Source: Clostridiales bacterium
Lineage (GTDB): Bacteria; Bacillota; Clostridia; Lachnospirales; Lachnospiraceae
Direction: 5' to 3'
NCBI GenBank assembly: GCA_020860715.1
Contig: JAJBTU010000024.1
Location: forward strand, 47,824-111,823
Length of the DNA: 64,000 bases
The position numbers and the translations under genes are program-made. The number at the start of each line of letters is the position of its first letter. Within the stretch, counting starts at the first letter, position 1. Shown here piece after piece: positions 14,423 through 60,102 of this stretch. A model generated the notes under the pieces. The model was given only the letters and a program-made list of their open reading frames with translations. It did no database searches and was not told the origin of the DNA.

Positions 14423-14453
14423 CCCGCCCCGCGCGCAGCGCATCAAAATGGGC
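14423..14453 (-). repeat. Partial copy (R1) of the hairpin repeat family
   Basis: cccgccccgcgcgcagcgcatcaaaatgggc; matches the palindrome part of R4 at 19293-19330. Confidence 0.6.
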
Positions 14454-16732: not shown

Positions 16733-16772
16733 AGCCCCGCCCTGCGCGCAGCGCATTTGCATAAGCAGAGCG
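16733..16772 (-). repeat. Partial copy (R2) of the hairpin repeat family
   Basis: agccccgccctgcgcgcagcgcatttgcataagcagagcg, in the 5' UTR of the GntR gene. Confidence 0.65.
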
Positions 16773-17717: not shown

Positions 17718-19703
17718 CTACAGCATCCGGTACCGAGCCAGACACGCCAGAATCTCCTGCCGTCTCACGGCTGCGGCAGCGCCCGCGCCGTAATTTTTCG
17801 GAGTGACAGAGAGGATCCCGTCTTTCTCGATTTTCTGTGCCGCTTCCTCCGCCAGGGCGGCGGCGGTCTTTTTGCCGTCTGCCATGCGGCCCAGGATATA
17901 CTGCATCAGATAAACCAGGGCAGCGGTCTGGCTCTCATCAACGACCTGTTCCAGATAACGCAGGTCGATCTCCGTCTTGTCCAGACTTAAGGTGTCCCAT
18001 CCGTGCGTGCGCGCCTTCTCGATCTGCTTTGCGCGAACCGGCTTTTTCAGCCAGGCGGTACGTTGTGCTGCTGCTTCCCGGCTCTTCGCTCTTATTTCCG
18101 GCAGAGTTTTCGTCGAATTTTCCTGTTCCTTCACGTTCGCTGTCCCCGGCATGGTTTCTTCGTCCGGCTGCCCGCCGCCATCCTGTGCCATTCCATGACG
18201 CGTACCTTCATATTGCTGCCCGCAGATTTCCTTTGCGCGCGCCGTGATGTCCTTTGCCACATAACAGTCCATCTGCAGCACGGTGTCCGCCGCCGCCAGA
18301 TAATCACCCGAACTGCCCACGACCAGAATCGTCGATACGCCAAGGTCTTCGTACAGACTGCGAATGCTGCGGATGAACGGCCTGATCGGCTCCTTTTCGT
18401 CAGAGACAAGCTGCGCCATGCGCTCATCACGCACCATAAAATTGGTTGCCGAGGTATCCTCATCGATCAACAACACGCGGCTGTCCGCGGCCAGCGCCTC
18501 AACCGTGTTCGCCGCCTGAGAGGTGCTGCCGCTTGCGTTTTCCGTAGAAAACCGGGTCGTGTCCGCATGCGTCGGAAGATTGCGAATAAACATGGAGATA
18601 TCTGTCTCATGGATGCAGCGTCCCTCTTCCGCGCGCAGCTTGAACGCGCTCTGATCCGTGATGACCAGTTCCCTGCCGTCCCCGGCAATGTGGTTGTAAA
18701 CGCCGCGTTCCAGCGCTTTCAAAAGAGTCGATTTTCCGTGAAATCCGCCGCCGGCGATCACCGTTACGCCCTTTTTGATTCCCATACCGCGCACGCATCC
18801 GCGGTGCGGCAGCTGAAGCGTCACCGCCAGACTCTCCGGACTTACAAACTTTACTGCAGCCCCGCCCTGCGCACTGCGCATTTTCATGGGCGGAGCGTCC
18901 TGCCGCCGAGCCTGGCGAGGGGGCGTTTCCATACTTTTCATCGGCCGCTGCGACACGCCGCTCTCCCGCGGCAGTACTGAGCCGTCCGCCACAAAAGCCA
19001 CCAGCCCCAGACCGTCCAGTGCATCCCGTATATACTGCTGGTCGTCCGCCAGCTCTGCAACTGCATCAAGTTCCCGTTTCATCTGCGGATTCAGATGAAA
19101 CGTTTTCTCCGCCGCCTCCGGCAGAAAGTCAAACAATATTTTTTCCAGCTCGCCCGCCGCGATCGTGCGCCCGAATGCCGGAAATCCGACTTCGATCCGC
19201 GCCTCTATTTCATTCTCAGAAATGCACATCGCAGTGCGTTCCAGAATTTCCTGTCCTGCGCGGCAGGCCGTCACGAGGCCGCTCTTACCCGAGCCCCGCC
19301 CCGCGCGCAGCGCATCTGCATGGGCGGGGCAACCTGCCGCCGAGCCTGGCGAGGGGGCGCTTCCCGAGCCCCGCCCCGCGCGACCTTTAAAGCTGTCCGC
19401 TTCCTGCCGAAATGCCGGACGTGACGACGATTCTGCACGAAGATTCCGGTGCAGACGCCGCAGCAGATAATCCTCCACGGCGATCCGGCGGTGACGGTTC
19501 TCAAAATACTGCGGCGCGATATTTCCACGGTTGTGATAAATGATCCGCACCCGCGAGGGCGTCGCGAACGGATCTCCCTGCACATGGTCAATTGCGAGGC
19601 GGTAGGCGCCGAAGTCGTATTCACCCTCCAGCACCTTGTATGCCTTATATCCTTTGTGGTCAATTTCTCTTAACTGTCTTCTCAGTTCTGCCTGTGATCG
19701 CAT
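17718..19703 (-). CDS. ABC-class P-loop ATPase (PF09818-like) carrying two in-frame repeat insertions
   Basis: MRSQAELRRQLREIDHKGYKAYK...IDHVQGDPFATPSRVRI; GIKKGVTVIAGGGFHGKSTLLKALERGVYNHIAGDGRE. Inserted segments METPPRQARRQDAPPMKMRSAQG and GSAPSPGSAAGCPAHADALRAGRG. Confidence 0.88.
   Translation of the reverse strand: MRSQAELRRQLREIDHKGYKAYKVLEGEYDFGAYRLAIDHVQGDPFATPSRVRIIYHNRGNIAPQYFENRHRRIAVEDYLLRRLHRNLRAESSSRPAFRQEADSFKGRAGRGSGSAPSPGSAAGCPAHADALRAGRGSGKSGLVTACRAGQEILERTAMCISENEIEARIEVGFPAFGRTIAAGELEKILFDFLPEAAEKTFHLNPQMKRELDAVAELADDQQYIRDALDGLGLVAFVADGSVLPRESGVSQRPMKSMETPPRQARRQDAPPMKMRSAQGGAAVKFVSPESLAVTLQLPHRGCVRGMGIKKGVTVIAGGGFHGKSTLLKALERGVYNHIAGDGRELVITDQSAFKLRAEEGRCIHETDISMFIRNLPTHADTTRFSTENASGSTSQAANTVEALAADSRVLLIDEDTSATNFMVRDERMAQLVSDEKEPIRPFIRSIRSLYEDLGVSTILVVGSSGDYLAAADTVLQMDCYVAKDITARAKEICGQQYEGTRHGMAQDGGGQPDEETMPGTANVKEQENSTKTLPEIRAKSREAAAQRTAWLKKPVRAKQIEKARTHGWDTLSLDKTEIDLRYLEQVVDESQTAALVYLMQYILGRMADGKKTAAALAEEAAQKIEKDGILSVTPKNYGAGAAAAVRRQEILACLARYRML
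18857..18930 (-). repeat. Hairpin repeat copy R3, in frame inside the ATPase gene
   Basis: agccccgccctgcgcactgcgcattttcatgggcggagcgtcctgccgccgagcctggcgagggggcgtttcc. Confidence 0.85.
19288..19382 (-). repeat. Hairpin repeat copy R4, in frame inside the ATPase gene, flanked by 20-bp direct repeats
   Basis: cccgagccccgccccgcgcg at 19288-19307 and 19363-19382 (75-bp period). Stem GCCCCGCCC/GGGCGGGGC at 19293-19301/19322-19330. Core ccgccgagcctggcgagggggcgcttcc. Confidence 0.88.
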
Positions 19704-20914
19704 TATTTTTCCCACCTGCCGCGAATCTCATCCAGCATCTCCATCACGCGGATCGTATGCGCGTGCGGCATCTCCTCACACTCCAGCTTTCCCGCCTCGA
19801 TCGCGCGCTTGCAGGCAAGGACTTCGTATTCATAGCCCGTGATCTGTTTTGGCTGCGGAATCGTCTCCACCAGCTCATACTCATTGTTGTAAATGCGGAT
19901 TTCCTCAAAGTTGTTGGTGTTTTCCACCTCTATACGGCCTTCCGTTCCAAAAATGATCCCGCGGCGGTCTGAGACCGCTTCCATAGTATTGAACAGTCCC
20001 GCGATTGTTCCGTTCGGATATACCAGATTGACAAACTCGGACTTGTCCACGCCCGTCTCGTGAAGCACCATCGAAGTCGAAAGGCTCTGAATGTCGTCGC
20101 CCAGCACCCAGGTCGCGAAATTCAGGGTATAAACCCCCAGGTCCAGCAGCGCACCGCCGGCCAGATCCGGGCGCACCATGCGCTCCTTGTCCAGAAGAGA
20201 ATAGCCCAGATTCGCGGTCAGACCAACGATTTTGCCAATGCGGCCGCCGCCCGGACGGTTCTCTCCGGCCACAACGTTTTTGTCTTCCCCACAGCTTCCC
20301 ATCGTAGCAGCGCCTGCCGATGCAGCAAAATTCAAAACGGACTGACCCGGCACAGCTGGTTCCCAGCAGCCCTGGCCCACGCGAAGCGTTTCTAAATGGC
20401 CAGGGCAATCTGCCCTCGCCGGGTGGCATCCTCGCCCTTCGGGCGGGATATCCGCCGAGCCTTGGGAGGGGGCGCTTCCCGTAAAAGCATCCTCTCCAAA
20501 CAGCAGCTCTCTTATCTTTACCGACTGCGGTGTATAGCGTGTCCACATCGCCTCCGTGATAAAGACCTTCTTCTCATGCGCCAGCTCCAGCACCTCCCGT
20601 GCTTCCGCCGCATTCTGAGTGAACGCCTTTTCACACAGCACCGGCTTTCCATGATTGATACACAGCTTCGCATGCTCGCAGTGCAGCGAGTGCGGCGTAG
20701 CGATATAGACCAGCTCTACCTGATCATCGCACAGCATTTCCTCATAGCTTCCGTAAGACGTTTCCGCCCCGTATTTTTCGGCAAACGCCTTTGCCCGCTC
20801 TCCGTCGCGGGCCGCGATCGCGTACAGGTTCACCTCATCCATCCGGGCTACCGTTTCCGCCATCGTCGTTGCGATTCTTCCGGCTCCTAAAATTGCAAGA
20901 TTCAGTTTTTTCAT
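19703..20914 (-). CDS. Gfo/Idh/MocA family oxidoreductase with a large in-frame insertion
   Basis: MKKLNLAILGAGRIATTMAETVARMDEVNLYAIAARDGERAKAFAEKYGAE; VLCEKAFTQNAAEAREVLELA; the segment GSAPSQGSADIPPEGRGCHPARADCPGHLETLRVGQG... is not expected in this fold. Confidence 0.9.
   Translation of the reverse strand: MKKLNLAILGAGRIATTMAETVARMDEVNLYAIAARDGERAKAFAEKYGAETSYGSYEEMLCDDQVELVYIATPHSLHCEHAKLCINHGKPVLCEKAFTQNAAEAREVLELAHEKKVFITEAMWTRYTPQSVKIRELLFGEDAFTGSAPSQGSADIPPEGRGCHPARADCPGHLETLRVGQGCWEPAVPGQSVLNFAASAGAATMGSCGEDKNVVAGENRPGGGRIGKIVGLTANLGYSLLDKERMVRPDLAGGALLDLGVYTLNFATWVLGDDIQSLSTSMVLHETGVDKSEFVNLVYPNGTIAGLFNTMEAVSDRRGIIFGTEGRIEVENTNNFEEIRIYNNEYELVETIPQPKQITGYEYEVLACKRAIEAGKLECEEMPHAHTIRVMEMLDEIRGRWEK
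20369..20480 (-). repeat. Hairpin repeat copy R5, in frame inside the oxidoreductase gene
   Basis: Stem GCCCTGGCC (20369-20377)/GGCCAGGGC (20398-20406), then ctgccctcgccgggtggcatcctcgcccttcgggcgggatatccgccgagccttgggagggggcgcttcc. Confidence 0.88.
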
Positions 20915-21002
20915 AGATGCATCTCCTTTTCCCTGTATAGATCTATCTGGTGCCGTCCCGTCGCGGCACTGTCATTTTCGGCAGGATGCCGCATATTCTC
21001 CG

Positions 21003-49454: not shown

Positions 49455-51575
49455 TTATGAATTCTGCACGCCATCGCCCGGCTGCGCTTCCGCGGTTTCC
49501 TGCGTTTCCGCCTGCGGCTGCCCGTCTGCGGTCTCTTCCGCCTTCGCCTGCGGCTGCGCTTCCACTGTTTCCTGTGTTTCCGCCTGCGGCTGCGTTTCTG
49601 CGATCTCTTCCGCCTTCGCCTGCGGCTGCGCTTCCTCCGTTCGTTCGGTGATTCGGGAGGTGATCTTCTTCTCCTTCTTCTCCCCCTCGCACTGACGGAA
49701 AATCTCCATAAACTCCTTGCCCGTAATAGTCTCTTTCTCGATCAGGAATTCCGCGATCTTATCCATCGTCCTGCGGTGCTCAGTGAGCAGACGTTTCGCC
49801 TCGTCGTAGGAGTCTTTTAAGATCTGCATGACTTCCTTATCGACCTCAGCCGCGGTCGCGTCGGAGCAGTTCATCACCGGACGGTTGTCCAGATACTGGG
49901 ACGCCGTCACTTCCAGGCCGATCAGGCCGAACTTCTTCGACATACCGTACTGGGTCACCATCGCGCGCGCGACCCGCGTCGCCTGCTCGATATCATTCGC
50001 CGCGCCGGTCGTGACCGTATCGAAGACGATCTCCTCCGCCGCACGTCCCGCCACGTACTCTACCAGCCTCGCACGGATCTCCTTTTCGGTATTAAGGTAT
50101 TTCTCCTCCTCCGGCACATTCATGACATAACCGAGAGCGCCCATCGTACGCGGCACAATCGTGATCTTCTGGACCGGCTCGGAATCCTTCTGCAATGCGC
50201 TCACCAGCGCATGACCTACCTCATGATAAGAGACAATGCGGCGTTCTTCCTTGCTGAGAACGCGGTTCTTTTTCTCCTGGCCGACCAGTACGACTTCCAC
50301 CGCCTCAAACAGATCCTGCTGTGAAACCGCCTTGCGGCCCTTTTTCACCGCGAGGATCGCGGCTTCATTGATCATATTCGCCAGATCGGAGCCCACCGCT
50401 CCGGACGTCGCCAGCGCGATGGCATCCAGATCGACGGTCTCATCCATGCTGACATCTTTCGAGTGTACCTTCAGCGTCTCAACACGGCCCTTCAGGTCCG
50501 GCTTGTCCACTATGACACGGCGGTCAAAACGTCCCGGCCGCAGCAGCGCCTGATCCAGCACCTCCGGACGGTTCGTCGCCGCCAGTACAATCAGGCCCTT
50601 GGACGGCTCAAAACCATCCATCTCGGCAAGCAGCTGGTTCAGTGTCTGCTCACGCTCATCATTCCCGCCGCCATAACGGGTATCACGGCTCTTCGCCACC
50701 GCGTCAATCTCATCGATAAATATAATGCACGGCGCGTTCTTCTTTGCTTCCTCGAACAGATCCCGCACGCGGGACGCGCCGACGCCAACAAACATCTCGA
50801 CAAAATCAGATCCCGAAAGGGAGAAGAACGGGCACTTCGCCTCGCCGGCAATCGCCCTCGCCAGCAGCGTCTTGCCGGTACCCGGAGGGCCGACCAAAAG
50901 AGCGCCCTTCGGCAGCTTCGCGCCAATCTCTGTATATTTCTGCGGATTTTCCAGAAAATCCACTACCTCCTGCAAAGACTCTTTTGCCTCATCCTGCCCG
51001 GCCACATCCTTGAATGTCACGCCAGTCTCTTTCTGAATATAGACCTTCGCCTTGCTTTTGCCGACACCCATGACGCCGCCGCTGCCGTTGGTCATTCTGC
51101 GCATCGCAAAGGCAAAAATCACCCATATAATGATCAGCGGAGCAAAACTCAGAATCAGACTCCAGATATAACTGGAAGTCGTATCCGGTATATTCTGTGT
51201 AAACGTCACTCCCGCCTGATCCAGACGGGCTACCAGATTCGGGTCATCCGGATTTCCTGTATAATAAGTCACCGATCCCGACACAGAGCTGAGATATTCG
51301 GAAGACGTATCGCTTTTCAGCGTAATCTCTATCTCATCCGAATAAACTGTGACAGAATCTACCCGCCCTTCTTCAAGCAGTTCGAGAAACTCATCATACG
51401 TAATTTCCACGGAGGACGAGCCGCTTCCAAAGCTGCTGTTCACCAGCGCCATGATAAGCAGTGTGACCAGTGTTACCGCCAGAAAGATAATAAATGTATT
51501 ATTATTCCTGCCGGGACGGTTATTCGGCCCCTGATCCCGGTCATTTCGGCGATTATCATTTTGATTATTGTCCAT
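49455..51575 (-). CDS. ftsH: ATP-dependent zinc metalloprotease FtsH, with repetitive Q/A/E-rich C-terminal tail
   Basis: [78 protein letters not shown]. Confidence 0.96.
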
Positions 51576-51624: not shown

Positions 51625-51824
51625 AAACCTGCACCGTCTGTCTTTTCATTTCGATGCTGTTCTATTGTTCAAAACAGCAGGCCACAGACCGTCTGCTTCG
51701 CAGACATATGCCGCTTACGCGTCATATGTCTGAGGCTGATGGGCGTTCCGCCCATCCCGAAATGAAAATACAGCCTTTAGCAGGTAAACCTGCACCGTCT
51801 GTCTTTTCATTTCGATGCTGTTCT
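51625..51824. repeat. 39-bp direct repeats (51625-51663, 51786-51824) flanking three hairpins
   Basis: aaacctgcaccgtctgtcttttcatttcgatgctgttct twice. Between them: GTCTGCttcGCAGAC, AGACATATG..CATATGTCT, GATGGGCGttcCGCCCATC. Confidence 0.88.
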
Positions 51825-54721: not shown

Positions 54722-56545
54722 TCAAAACTGATTATATATGAACTGCGTCTGGTCGTACCCGATGCCGTACGCGCCGAATACCACCACCACAATCACCAGA
54801 GCAGCAAACAGGATATATTTCCAGGCTGCAGCGCCTGCGAAACGCGAAGCGTTTTCAGCATCGCAGGCGCGAGCTGCCCTCGCCGGGTGGCATCCTCGCC
54901 CTTCGGGCTGGATATCCGCCGAAGCGCAGCGAGGGGGCGTTTCCACAGCGCCTGCGAAGATCCGGTCGCGGACGCCCCGCACAACACCTTTTTCAGCCGC
55001 GGGCATTTTTTCCTGCACAGCGCTGTTTTTTTCGGTCTCCGCCGCATTTACGGCAGTATTCCCGGACGCGGCGGATTTTGCCGCCGCTTCGATCCTCTCC
55101 TGCGCAATGCTCACGGAAAGCACGATAAGCAGGCTCACAAAGAGCAGCGCGTAATCCGCCGCACTAAGACCCAGCCCCAGAAAAGCCTCCGCAGTCAGAT
55201 CGCTGAGCCTGAACTGTGTGAACATGTTCGCAAACATCCGGAACGTCAGCGGCACATCCCGATAACAGTCAAACAGGCGGATGCAGCTCATCAGCAGGAT
55301 CGTGCGGATGATTTCAAATACACCGTACCCGCGCTTTTCATTCAGATGGAAGCGCGCGTGAAAGCGGCTGTACAGAGGCTGCAGTTCCTGTGAAACCATG
55401 ATCACAACATAGTTCGTCAATCCCCAGGCGATGAAGTTCCAGCTTGCGCCGTGCCAGACGCCGGTGGCAAGCCAGACCGCGAACGCCGACAGATAAACCG
55501 GCACCCGTTTGCCAATCGCATCCCCAAAGTGTTTCCGGGAGAATGTAGACAGCTTCAGCATCGGCTTGCACACGGAGATCGGGTAAAAGATATAGTCCGT
55601 GAACCAGGTGCCCATCGAAATATGCCAGCGGTTCCAGTATTCCTTGATATTTTTTGAAAAATACGGCCGGATAAAATTCTCTTTTACGGTAATCCCCATC
55701 GTCTGCGCAATGCCGATCGTGATATCGATGCCGCCGGTAAAATCCGCATACAGCTCAAAAGCGTAAAACAGCATCCCCACCAGAACAAAAGCCCCCTGAT
55801 AGACTTCCGGATTCTGAATGATCGTATTCACCGCGGCCAGGATCCGGTCCGCGATCACCAGCTTTTTGAAATATCCCCAGAGGATCCGGTAAAGTCCGTA
55901 CGATACCGTCCTCGCATCAAACCGGTGCGGCGTATAAAGCGAAGCGGCCAGATCCGAATAACGGCTGATCGGTCCCTGCACCAGCTGCGGAAAAAACGAC
56001 ACGAACAGCGCCAGACGAAACAGATTTTTCTCCGCATGACAGGTTCCCCGGTATACGTCGATCAGGTAGCCCAGCGCCTGAAACGTATAAAAAGAAATCC
56101 CCATCGGCAGCACCAGATTTACAAACGAAAGCTGCTTCGTGCTTCCGATCATGGAGAGAAAGCCGTTGAAATTGGCAATCGCAAAATTCGTATATTTCAG
56201 CACAGCCAGAATGCCGAGGTTGACAAGCAGACCCAGAAGCAGCCACTTCCACTTCTGCTTTTTTATCTGCGACTTAAAGGCTTTCTTTTCCTCACGGCTG
56301 ATCTGTCCCTTTTTTTCCTTTAAAAAGGTTTCCTGCCGGACGCGCAGCGTTTCCATCTTCCGGCCCAGCAGCCAGACTGTGACCGTCGTCGTTCCGATAA
56401 AAAGCAGGTAGGACGGGCTTGCCAGAAAATAAAACACATAGCTGGCAGCCAGCAGAAAACACCACTGGTATTTTTTCGGAAACAGATAATAAATGATAAA
56501 GACGGCAGTGATAAAGCCGATAAAACTATAGGATGTAAAGAGCAT
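54722..56545 (-). CDS. MBOAT family O-acyltransferase (DltB/AlgI-like) carrying an in-frame repeat insertion
   Basis: LVLPMGISFYTFQALGYLIDVYRG; SFFPQLVQGPISRY; FWNRWH-type motif KEYWNRWHISMGTWF; GVWHGASWNFIAWG. Confidence 0.93.
   Translation of the reverse strand: MLFTSYSFIGFITAVFIIYYLFPKKYQWCFLLAASYVFYFLASPSYLLFIGTTTVTVWLLGRKMETLRVRQETFLKEKKGQISREEKKAFKSQIKKQKWKWLLLGLLVNLGILAVLKYTNFAIANFNGFLSMIGSTKQLSFVNLVLPMGISFYTFQALGYLIDVYRGTCHAEKNLFRLALFVSFFPQLVQGPISRYSDLAASLYTPHRFDARTVSYGLYRILWGYFKKLVIADRILAAVNTIIQNPEVYQGAFVLVGMLFYAFELYADFTGGIDITIGIAQTMGITVKENFIRPYFSKNIKEYWNRWHISMGTWFTDYIFYPISVCKPMLKLSTFSRKHFGDAIGKRVPVYLSAFAVWLATGVWHGASWNFIAWGLTNYVVIMVSQELQPLYSRFHARFHLNEKRGYGVFEIIRTILLMSCIRLFDCYRDVPLTFRMFANMFTQFRLSDLTAEAFLGLGLSAADYALLFVSLLIVLSVSIAQERIEAAAKSAASGNTAVNAAETEKNSAVQEKMPAAEKGVVRGVRDRIFAGAVETPPRCASADIQPEGRGCHPARAARACDAENASRFAGAAAWKYILFAALVIVVVVFGAYGIGYDQTQFIYNQF
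54829..54958 (-). repeat. Hairpin repeat copy R6, in frame in the MBOAT gene, flanked by 13-bp direct repeats
   Basis: cagcgcctgcgaa at 54829-54841 and 54946-54958 (117-bp period). Stem GCGCCTGCGA (54831-54840)/TCGCAGGCGC (54861-54870). Confidence 0.9.
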
Positions 56546-58390: not shown

Positions 58391-60102
58391 TTACTCAATC
58401 GTCGACGACGTCGTCGGCGTGGACGGATACAGGCTCGTATCAAACGCATTGTAGGTGCCGTATTTTTCAAAATAGGCAATCATTTCCGCGTCCGTAAGAA
58501 GGAAAAAAGTCGCGCCGCTCTGTCTCGGCGTCGTGTCCAGATGATACCAGCCGTCGCCCACGTTGACCAGGCTCCAGTAGTGATGCGAACGGGTCGTATT
58601 CGATTTTTCCACATCAATATTCGGAATCCCGGCCTGCGTCAGCAGCGCCTTCGTTGTGGCAAAATAAATGTAGCAGTCGCCCATGCCGGTCGTGAAACCG
58701 ATATGCGCACCGTTTGTCCAGCTTTCCTTATAAGAAGATTCCGCATAAGAAAGATTTGCCCTTACCCAGTTATAGATCGCTTTCGCTTTCTGCTTCAGCG
58801 TCATATCGTCCGTCACGATCTCATCGAGCACCTCCTGCGCTTCCTCCAGCACCACAGATTCCTCGATATAGTCGTCCGGTTTTTCAGAAAAGGTGATCGT
58901 CGTAGACGCGGATGTCGTATGTCCCGCCCAGTCCGTTGCCGTGTAAGTGATATCGTACGTCCCCGGCTCATCCGGATTCACATTATCCGTATCCACGGTG
59001 AGTTCCGCATCCGGATCGCAGTCGTCCGTCACAAGAATATTAGATTTATAAGAAACAGGTACGTCAATATAGGCTTCCAGAGCCACCACACCGTCAATGA
59101 CCGGCGCTTCCTCGTCCTCCAGAACCTCCACCTCACCGATGATCTCTGTCGTGTTGCCGCCCTCGTCAGTCACAACCACCACCGGATGAACCGTACCTTC
59201 ACTCGAATAATCCGGCTCCTCTTTGTACGCGCAGGTCACATCCGTCGCGTCGCTGATATCACCAACCAGTTCCTCTGCTTCCAGCGTGCCGCCTACATTC
59301 AGGGACGTACTCACCGCTGCGGCTGTCGGCGTCTCCGTATCCTGAATCTCCAGCGTTGACTTCCACTGCCTGCCCTTCGCCTCAAGAACAACCTCATATG
59401 TACCAATATGATGAAAAGAAATGTCCGCTATGTCCGTCACAAAGTCCACGTCCATACCGGCTGCGTTCTCCGTCAGAAAATCCTCCGCCGAAACTACCCC
59501 CCTGCTTCCACCAGCATATTCTTCACAACAGGAGAACGAAAATACACAATAAGTCCGCAGACGGCACCCAGCAGGACACAGCCGCCGCAGACGCTTCCGA
59601 TCGAGATCCATATATGCTTCTTTCTTCTGCGTGCTTCCTCCTGCTTCCAGCGCTCATGCCTCTGCTTTTGTTCCCTTAAAAATTCCTGGCCGTCGAGCTG
59701 CTCCTCGCTCTCCACACGCTCCATCTCCGCCAGATAATCCGGACGCTTCTCCGCTTTTGGTTCCTCTGCCTTCGGTTCGACCGCTTCCGGTTCGGCCGCT
59801 TTCGGTTCAGCCGCTTCCGGTTCGGTTGCTTCTGGTTCGGCCGCTTTCACTTCGGCCGCTTCCGGTTCGGCCGCCTTCGGTTCGGCCGCCTTCGGTTCGG
59901 CCGCTTCCAGTTCGGCCGCCTTCGGTTCGGCCGCTTTCGGTTCGACCGCTTCCAGTTCCTTCGCTTCCGGTTCGGCCGCCTTCGGTTCGGCCGCTTTCGG
60001 TTCAGCCGCTTTCGGTTCAGCCGCCTTCGGTTCGGCTGCTTCTGCCCCGGCTTCGCCCATATTCCCCTCTCCGATTGTCTCTTCCGTACCTTTTTCTCCC
60101 AT
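58391..60102 (-). pseudogene. Membrane-anchored transglutaminase-like protein with EPKAA repeat N-terminus, frame-disrupted at G6
   Basis: N-part in 59494..60156 (EPKAA repeats, TM, FRSPVVKNMLVEAGG*). C-part in 58391..59611 (VVSAEDFLTENAAG...; transglutaminase core GDCYIYFATTKALL, SHHYWSLVNVGDGWYHLDTTPR). Frames meet at C6/G6 59497-59502. Confidence 0.82.
59755..60050 (-). repeat. 15-bp coding repeat (EPKAA/EPEAA units)
   Basis: Repeated ttcggttcggccgcc units. Confidence 0.9.

Follow-up and report, generated by a model that had tools for sequence, protein, structure and literature searches.

An in-frame 117-bp insertion in an MBOAT gene of a gut Lachnospiraceae bacterium is very probably a copy of a mobile palindromic element matching the Rfam GA-cis RNA

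The window (the whole 64,000-nucleotide stretch analyzed) carries a gene for an MBOAT-family membrane O-acyltransferase (Pfam match, E=1.5e-15). Its open reading frame of 607 amino acids includes an insert, R6, that has no stop codon. The initial annotation had described R6 as a 117-bp in-frame insertion bounded by 13-bp direct repeats. Both copies of the repeat, cagcgcctgcgaa, were confirmed, with their starts 117 bp apart. Removing one period leaves VRDRIFAGAAAWKYILF, and relatives give the same net length, bearing out the in-frame insertion. The boundary slides within the repeat, and 54842-54958 is an equally valid placement of the unit. In 17 of 2000 first-order Markov resamples of the 801-bp stretch examined, an exact 13-bp direct repeat arose somewhere; the one observed falls exactly on the insertion boundary defined by the relatives. 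R6 consists of a GA-cis-type unit of 78 bp in which a 39-bp hairpin is nested, and its inner arm is, as had been claimed, the exact reverse complement of GCGCCTGCGA. With AlphaFold, using 25 MBOAT sequences, the insert is modeled as a disordered loop, a low-confidence and mostly unstructured stretch that separates two long helices (pLDDT below 50 at 533-556).

Three sister copies in the window lie in two other genes, both on the minus strand: an ABC-class ATPase gene (open frame 17721-19727) with two copies and a Gfo/Idh oxidoreductase gene (open frame 19706-20971) with a composite copy. The window also contains 15-bp tandem repeats at 59706-60099 and 36-bp tandem repeats at 49479-49658, the latter encoding the FtsH C-terminal tail. 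Upstream of ftsH is an exact 39-bp repeat (51625-51663 and 51786-51824, 161 bp apart).

Table 1. Features of the MBOAT locus and sister copies in the window.
Feature	Position	Strand	Basis or remarks
MBOAT-family membrane O-acyltransferase gene (R6 host)	54722..56545	-	ORF, Pfam PF03062, alignment with 24 relatives
R6 inserted unit, 117 bp	54829..54945	-	Empty sites in relatives, dispersed copies
R6 direct-repeat copy 1	54829..54841	+	Outer arm of variable-arm hairpin; right end of element in coding orientation
R6 small terminal hairpin AACGCGAAGCGTT in loop	54841..54853		Family-conserved, core CGC..GCG
R6 inner arm TCGCAGGCGC	54861..54870		Complementary to 54831-54840
R6 nested 39-bp (13-codon) hairpin repeat	54877..54915		Same position in about 28 sister copies; also occurs as separate repeats
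R6 conserved core hairpin, second half (CCGCCGAAGCGCAGCGAGGGGGCGTTTCCA)	54916..54945		
R6 direct-repeat copy 2, MBOAT 5' side	54946..54958		At native codons FAGA (FAAP in G001)
Sister copy in ABC-class ATPase gene	18855..18934	+	In frame; GA-cis 36.3 bits; host PF09818
Second sister copy, same ABC-class ATPase gene	19289..19368	+	GA-cis 35.6 bits; 18-bp left repeat
Sister composite copy in Gfo/Idh oxidoreductase gene	20365..20483	+	In frame; 26.7 bits; Pfam PF01408

The MBOAT site is empty in about 20 Lachnospiraceae relatives, which read VRD-x-I-F-A-A-P-A-A-W-K-Y or close variants. Their flanks are identical, and the net gain in the MBOAT gene is exactly 117 bp. The nearest empty-site relatives are G001 (same protein as JAJQHZ010000085), G026 (JAJQFO010000090), and G027 (JAJBVF010000506), and the loci with the empty site include L056/L086, L057/L085, and L058/L087. 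At the DNA level G001 has GATCTTCGCCGCACCGGCAGCCTGG, while the window minus one period has GATCTTCGCAGGCGCTGCAGCCTGG. The initial annotation had expected a close relative to read IFAGA directly followed by AWKY, and held that insert-free relatives also lacking FAGA would speak against it. An insert-free site does exist, but in G001 it reads FAAP rather than FAGA, so the objection applies in part. The left 13-bp copy occupies native MBOAT positions and differs from G001 at several bases within the repeat (TTCGCCGCACCGG in this nearest empty-site relative, TTCGCAGGCGCTG in the window).

The dispersed repeat to which R6 belongs has about 36 copies in this genome. By sequence, the family corresponds to the Rfam GA-cis RNA (RF02987); in the literature searched we found no paper describing GA-cis. 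The Rfam model finds 35 copies in this genome, 27 of them above the gathering score. Within the genus, copies are present in 24 of 47 genomes, several of which have 40-60 and the richest about 60. Across the Lachnospiraceae they occur in 21 of 299 sampled genomes, and searches outside the family covered 14 control genomes. The unit is about 75-78 bp long, or 114-117 bp with the nested hairpin, and in coding orientation reads TGGAAACGCCCCCTCGC..GCTCGGCGGCAGRTCG-arm-NATNNAAAACGCTTCGCGTTTG-arm'-GCT. It combines a core hairpin of conserved sequence (GGAAACGCCCCCTCGC..GCTCGGCGGCAG) with a second hairpin whose arms vary but always pair. R6 folds into two hairpins with paired arms as in the GA-cis model, and the arm covariation of GA-cis is found as well.

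R6 itself is absent from the Rfam model matches because the nested 39-bp hairpin interrupts the core; its membership in the family therefore rests on DNA similarity to sister copies. The R6 unit is 83% identical to the composite copy in the Gfo/Idh gene (L002), which at 26.7 bits is below the GA-cis cut-off of 34.7 and which has the same nested 39-bp hairpin but different arms. About 28 composite copies carry this hairpin at one and the same position. A second dispersed palindromic repeat (ATATCCCGYCC..GGRCGGGATGCCACCCGGCGAGGGC) is found mostly outside GA-cis units, at L006, L007, L009, L013, L014, L017, and L019-L022, and is probably the family from which the nested hairpin came.

Other arrangements of the unit were also seen. 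At 14423-14453 and 16736-16766 of the window the variable-arm hairpin stands alone, without the core; these partial copies are possibly scars of core deletion, like an apparent single-repeat scar in the ComF gene of G001 (L381). Two genomes (G068 and G069, L254-L265) have a constant-arm GA-cis unit inside a larger repeat with flanks GACGCCCTGCACGGGCTTGCAATGTCAGGGCC and GCTCGCGCTTAATCGGGCACGCAGC, several copies per genome. L028 (C10:1267-1345) and L053 (C31:175046-175175) have matching arms (CCAGGGTGCCCC) and adjoin TnpV C-terminal coding sequence, and one of the two carries a further nested hairpin. They possibly represent a copy carried by a TnpV transposon. In other Lachnospiraceae genera (L389-L408), the copies that by eye directly precede a start codon, about half of 20 sampled, have an outer arm resembling AGGAGGAAC and an inner arm resembling GTTCCTCC, an anti-Shine-Dalgarno sequence, and the gene's own AGGAGG follows the unit at once. 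This layout suggests a putative decoy or anti-Shine-Dalgarno arrangement controlling translation.

About 23 of the 36 copies in this genome are in frame in genes identified by Pfam or otherwise recognizable (YbaK and some other gene names were assigned by recognition). The hosts encode MBOAT, Gfo/Idh, PurL, a histidine kinase, IleRS, HflX, radical SAM, NAD synthase (NadE), AAA_14/DUF4143, ComF, arylsulfotransferase (two copies), ArgJ, RibF, a sugar ABC ATPase, LacZ, LeuRS, the ABC-class ATPase (two copies), an Orn/Lys/Arg decarboxylase, an acetylornithine-type aminotransferase, TnpV, and YbaK. Relatives have clean in-frame empty sites for inserts of 78 bp in LeuRS, HflX, and arylsulfotransferase, 72 bp in the AAA_14 ATPase, 87 bp in the Orn/Lys/Arg decarboxylase, and 114 bp in PurL. 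The LeuRS insert is absent in three relatives, and Thermus LeuRS, of known structure, shows the same 26-residue gap. Some genic insertions are in variable linkers, where the alignment is loose. Genic copies occur in both orientations relative to the host gene. Most in-frame copies are read in one stop-free main frame, (V/M)ETPPR..SAADR..ENASR; occasional copies use the sense strand or one of two other antisense frames. Because the unit's length is a multiple of three and its main frame has no stops, the host protein stays open, and the copies inside host genes are best read as putatively protein-coding. By hand count, one copy, in a RhuM gene (L048), appears to shift the frame, so the in-frame retention may be survivorship.

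The arms are diverse, with 93 distinct among 109. Arms of the same copy pair at 6.75 of 7 positions, compared with 3.65 for arms taken from different copies; the comparison was made copy by copy, as a single MAFFT alignment mixes two arm registers. Composite copies have 87% core identity versus 47% arm identity, and among the 28 sharing the nested hairpin 21 of 25 arms are distinct. As an arm source, copying from elsewhere in the local flank was rejected: it accounts for 8% of copies versus 3% in the control, and partly reflects tandem or neighboring copies. The inserts in LeuRS, HflX, arylsulfotransferase, and PurL include the outer arm, which the empty sites lack, so this arm belongs to the unit. 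The LeuRS and HflX inserts contain both stem arms, and the right-hand repeat of R6 is accordingly best taken for the outer arm of the element itself. The earlier proposal that flank and element together make the stem is thus better recast: the last 13 bp of the element are its own outer arm, of which the left flank holds a copy.

How the left copy of the R6 repeat arose is a separate matter, and the two main possibilities concern the origin of the repeat alone, within the preferred reading of R6 as a mobile element. Among 113 copies, 23 (about 20%; score at least 13) have a left flank that repeats the right end of the unit in register, against 3% of mispaired controls. These repeats always end beside the unit start. 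Their lengths are 13 bp in R6 and YbaK, 15-54 bp elsewhere, and up to full tandem units of more than 78 bp; tandem arrays are common. In the radical-SAM gene, the first unit is truncated in this genome, whereas G001 has two complete units at that place. Such continuous lengths would fit a left copy that is what remains of an upstream tandem unit after truncation or that was carried in with the element, an origin to which we give not quite even credence. The R6 arm CGCGCCTGCGAT recurs elsewhere, in the composite copies L411 and L424, as that origin would allow. It must also accommodate a net gain of exactly one unit, with 13 native bp lost to balance the 13 gained. The same net gain agrees with classical transposition, in which the native TTCGCAGGCGCTG was duplicated as a 13-bp target-site duplication and targets complementary to the inner arm were chosen, a possible but more doubtful course. 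The left copy aligns with native codons (FA is conserved), the ComF repeat in G032 extends into host codons (CDQIRP), and the published YPAL family has 3-26 bp duplications beside dyad symmetry (PMC2229807). An empty MBOAT site of the same species should then read GCAGGCGCTG. Against duplication, the native sequence of G001 differs within the 13 bases, about 80% of the 113 copies have no such repeat, and the empty LeuRS and HflX sites lack the outer arm. The target-site duplication suggested in the initial annotation is thus not established, with G001 differing and the outer arm belonging to the element in sister copies. Given the continuous repeat lengths, the radical-SAM truncation, and the ComF patterns, we see the left copy of R6 as coming either from a target that matched or was duplicated or from a leftover of the element.

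Three-way agreement between target, inner arm, and outer arm is seen in R6 and in ComF of both this genome and G008. In ComF the two genomes carry different arms, each agreeing at three places; G032 has a third arm sequence whose inner arm agrees with the right repeat (two places), and G001 has only the apparent scar. It is conceivable, though quite improbable, that the inner arm is a guide to the target or a product of it, the unit inserting beside a complement of its arm or writing an inverted copy of the target. If so, this arm-guided or target-copying insertion would be a mechanism unlike that of known MITEs.

Taken as a whole, R6 is very probably one copy of a mobile palindromic element that is dispersed in Lachnospiraceae and that Rfam names the GA-cis RNA. 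The units are discrete insertions that sit in frame in coding genes, at sites that are empty in relatives, and the element is probably both non-autonomous and mobile. It remains unlikely that GA-cis is instead a selected structured RNA acting in cis, immobile and with regulatory genic copies. The strong arm covariation and the Rfam listing as a structured RNA favor such a role, and by eye about half of 20 copies in other genera are just 5' of a start codon with a Shine-Dalgarno-like arm. Dozens of lineage-specific copies in unrelated core genes, in both orientations and with empty sites in sister species, argue against it. Ordinary low-complexity loop expansion of the MBOAT linker is hardly credible: other sequence does lengthen the adjacent linker in G001 and G026, but copies in unrelated genes match the R6 insert at 83% identity over about 100 bp.

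As a mobile element, the unit would move as DNA or RNA with an enzyme driving the process. Its arms may stay paired because a folded intermediate is under selection, because a polymerase switches templates between the inverted arms, or for both reasons; template switching can create and maintain RNA hairpins, as a published account describes (PMC8794818). The outer arm of R6, its right-hand repeat, would have arrived with the element, and the left copy would derive from a target that already matched, from a duplicated target, or from an upstream unit cut short. Candidate mobilizers were rejected. PF01797, for a RAYT/Y1 transposase, is absent from the whole genome. RVT_1, for a reverse transcriptase, is absent here and in the copy-rich G020 and G010, and did not track copy number across the genus. 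Phage or plasmid carriage gave no match.

Among known systems, the Rickettsia palindromic element (RPE) is functionally the closest case, while by sequence it is the GA-cis RNA. RPEs are short (about 100-150 bp) palindromic repeats found in intergenic regions and in frame in many conserved protein genes (PMC2229807; PMC10969869). With RPE and its Wolbachia counterparts the R6 family shares in-frame palindromic insertions in protein genes and empty sites in relatives. It differs from RPE in its phylum, its fixed core hairpin plus variable-arm hairpin, its tandem arrays and partial repeats, and its match to an Rfam RNA. Compared on behavior alone, the family is best read as working like RPE; we do not call it RPE, as its architecture differs. 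With RF02987 it shares the two-hairpin model, matched above the gathering score as given earlier, but Rfam lists an sRNA whereas most copies here are inside ORFs and behave as dispersed insertions, and R6 has the extra nested hairpin that the model misses. YPAL/RU-2 of Yersinia is about 168 bp long, with internal inverted repeats, variable 3-26 bp duplications, and recent mobility shown by empty and filled sites (PMC2229807); it is reported as intergenic, from another phylum, and not in frame in core genes. Like REP/BIME with RAYT, the family has dispersed palindromic units, sometimes in arrays, though the genome has no Y1 (HUH) transposase (PF01797). REPs are extragenic and RAYT-associated. 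The terminal inverted repeats of MITEs were not found: the ends are GGAAACG... and ...GCT, and the inverted repeats are internal hairpins. As for the constant target-site duplication of MITEs, the repeat here is present in about 20% of copies, at lengths ranging from 13 bp to over 78 bp.

Rickettsia and Wolbachia are the best-known settings in which 'selfish' palindromes occupy core genes in frame. The same behavior in many gut Lachnospiraceae species would make it a recurrent route for proteins to gain segments. Our results suggest that one of the orphan RNA families in Rfam is at least partly a mobile element. This bears on how RNA motifs are called by covariation, as RNA function need not be the sole force that keeps arms paired; insertion or template switching may do so too.
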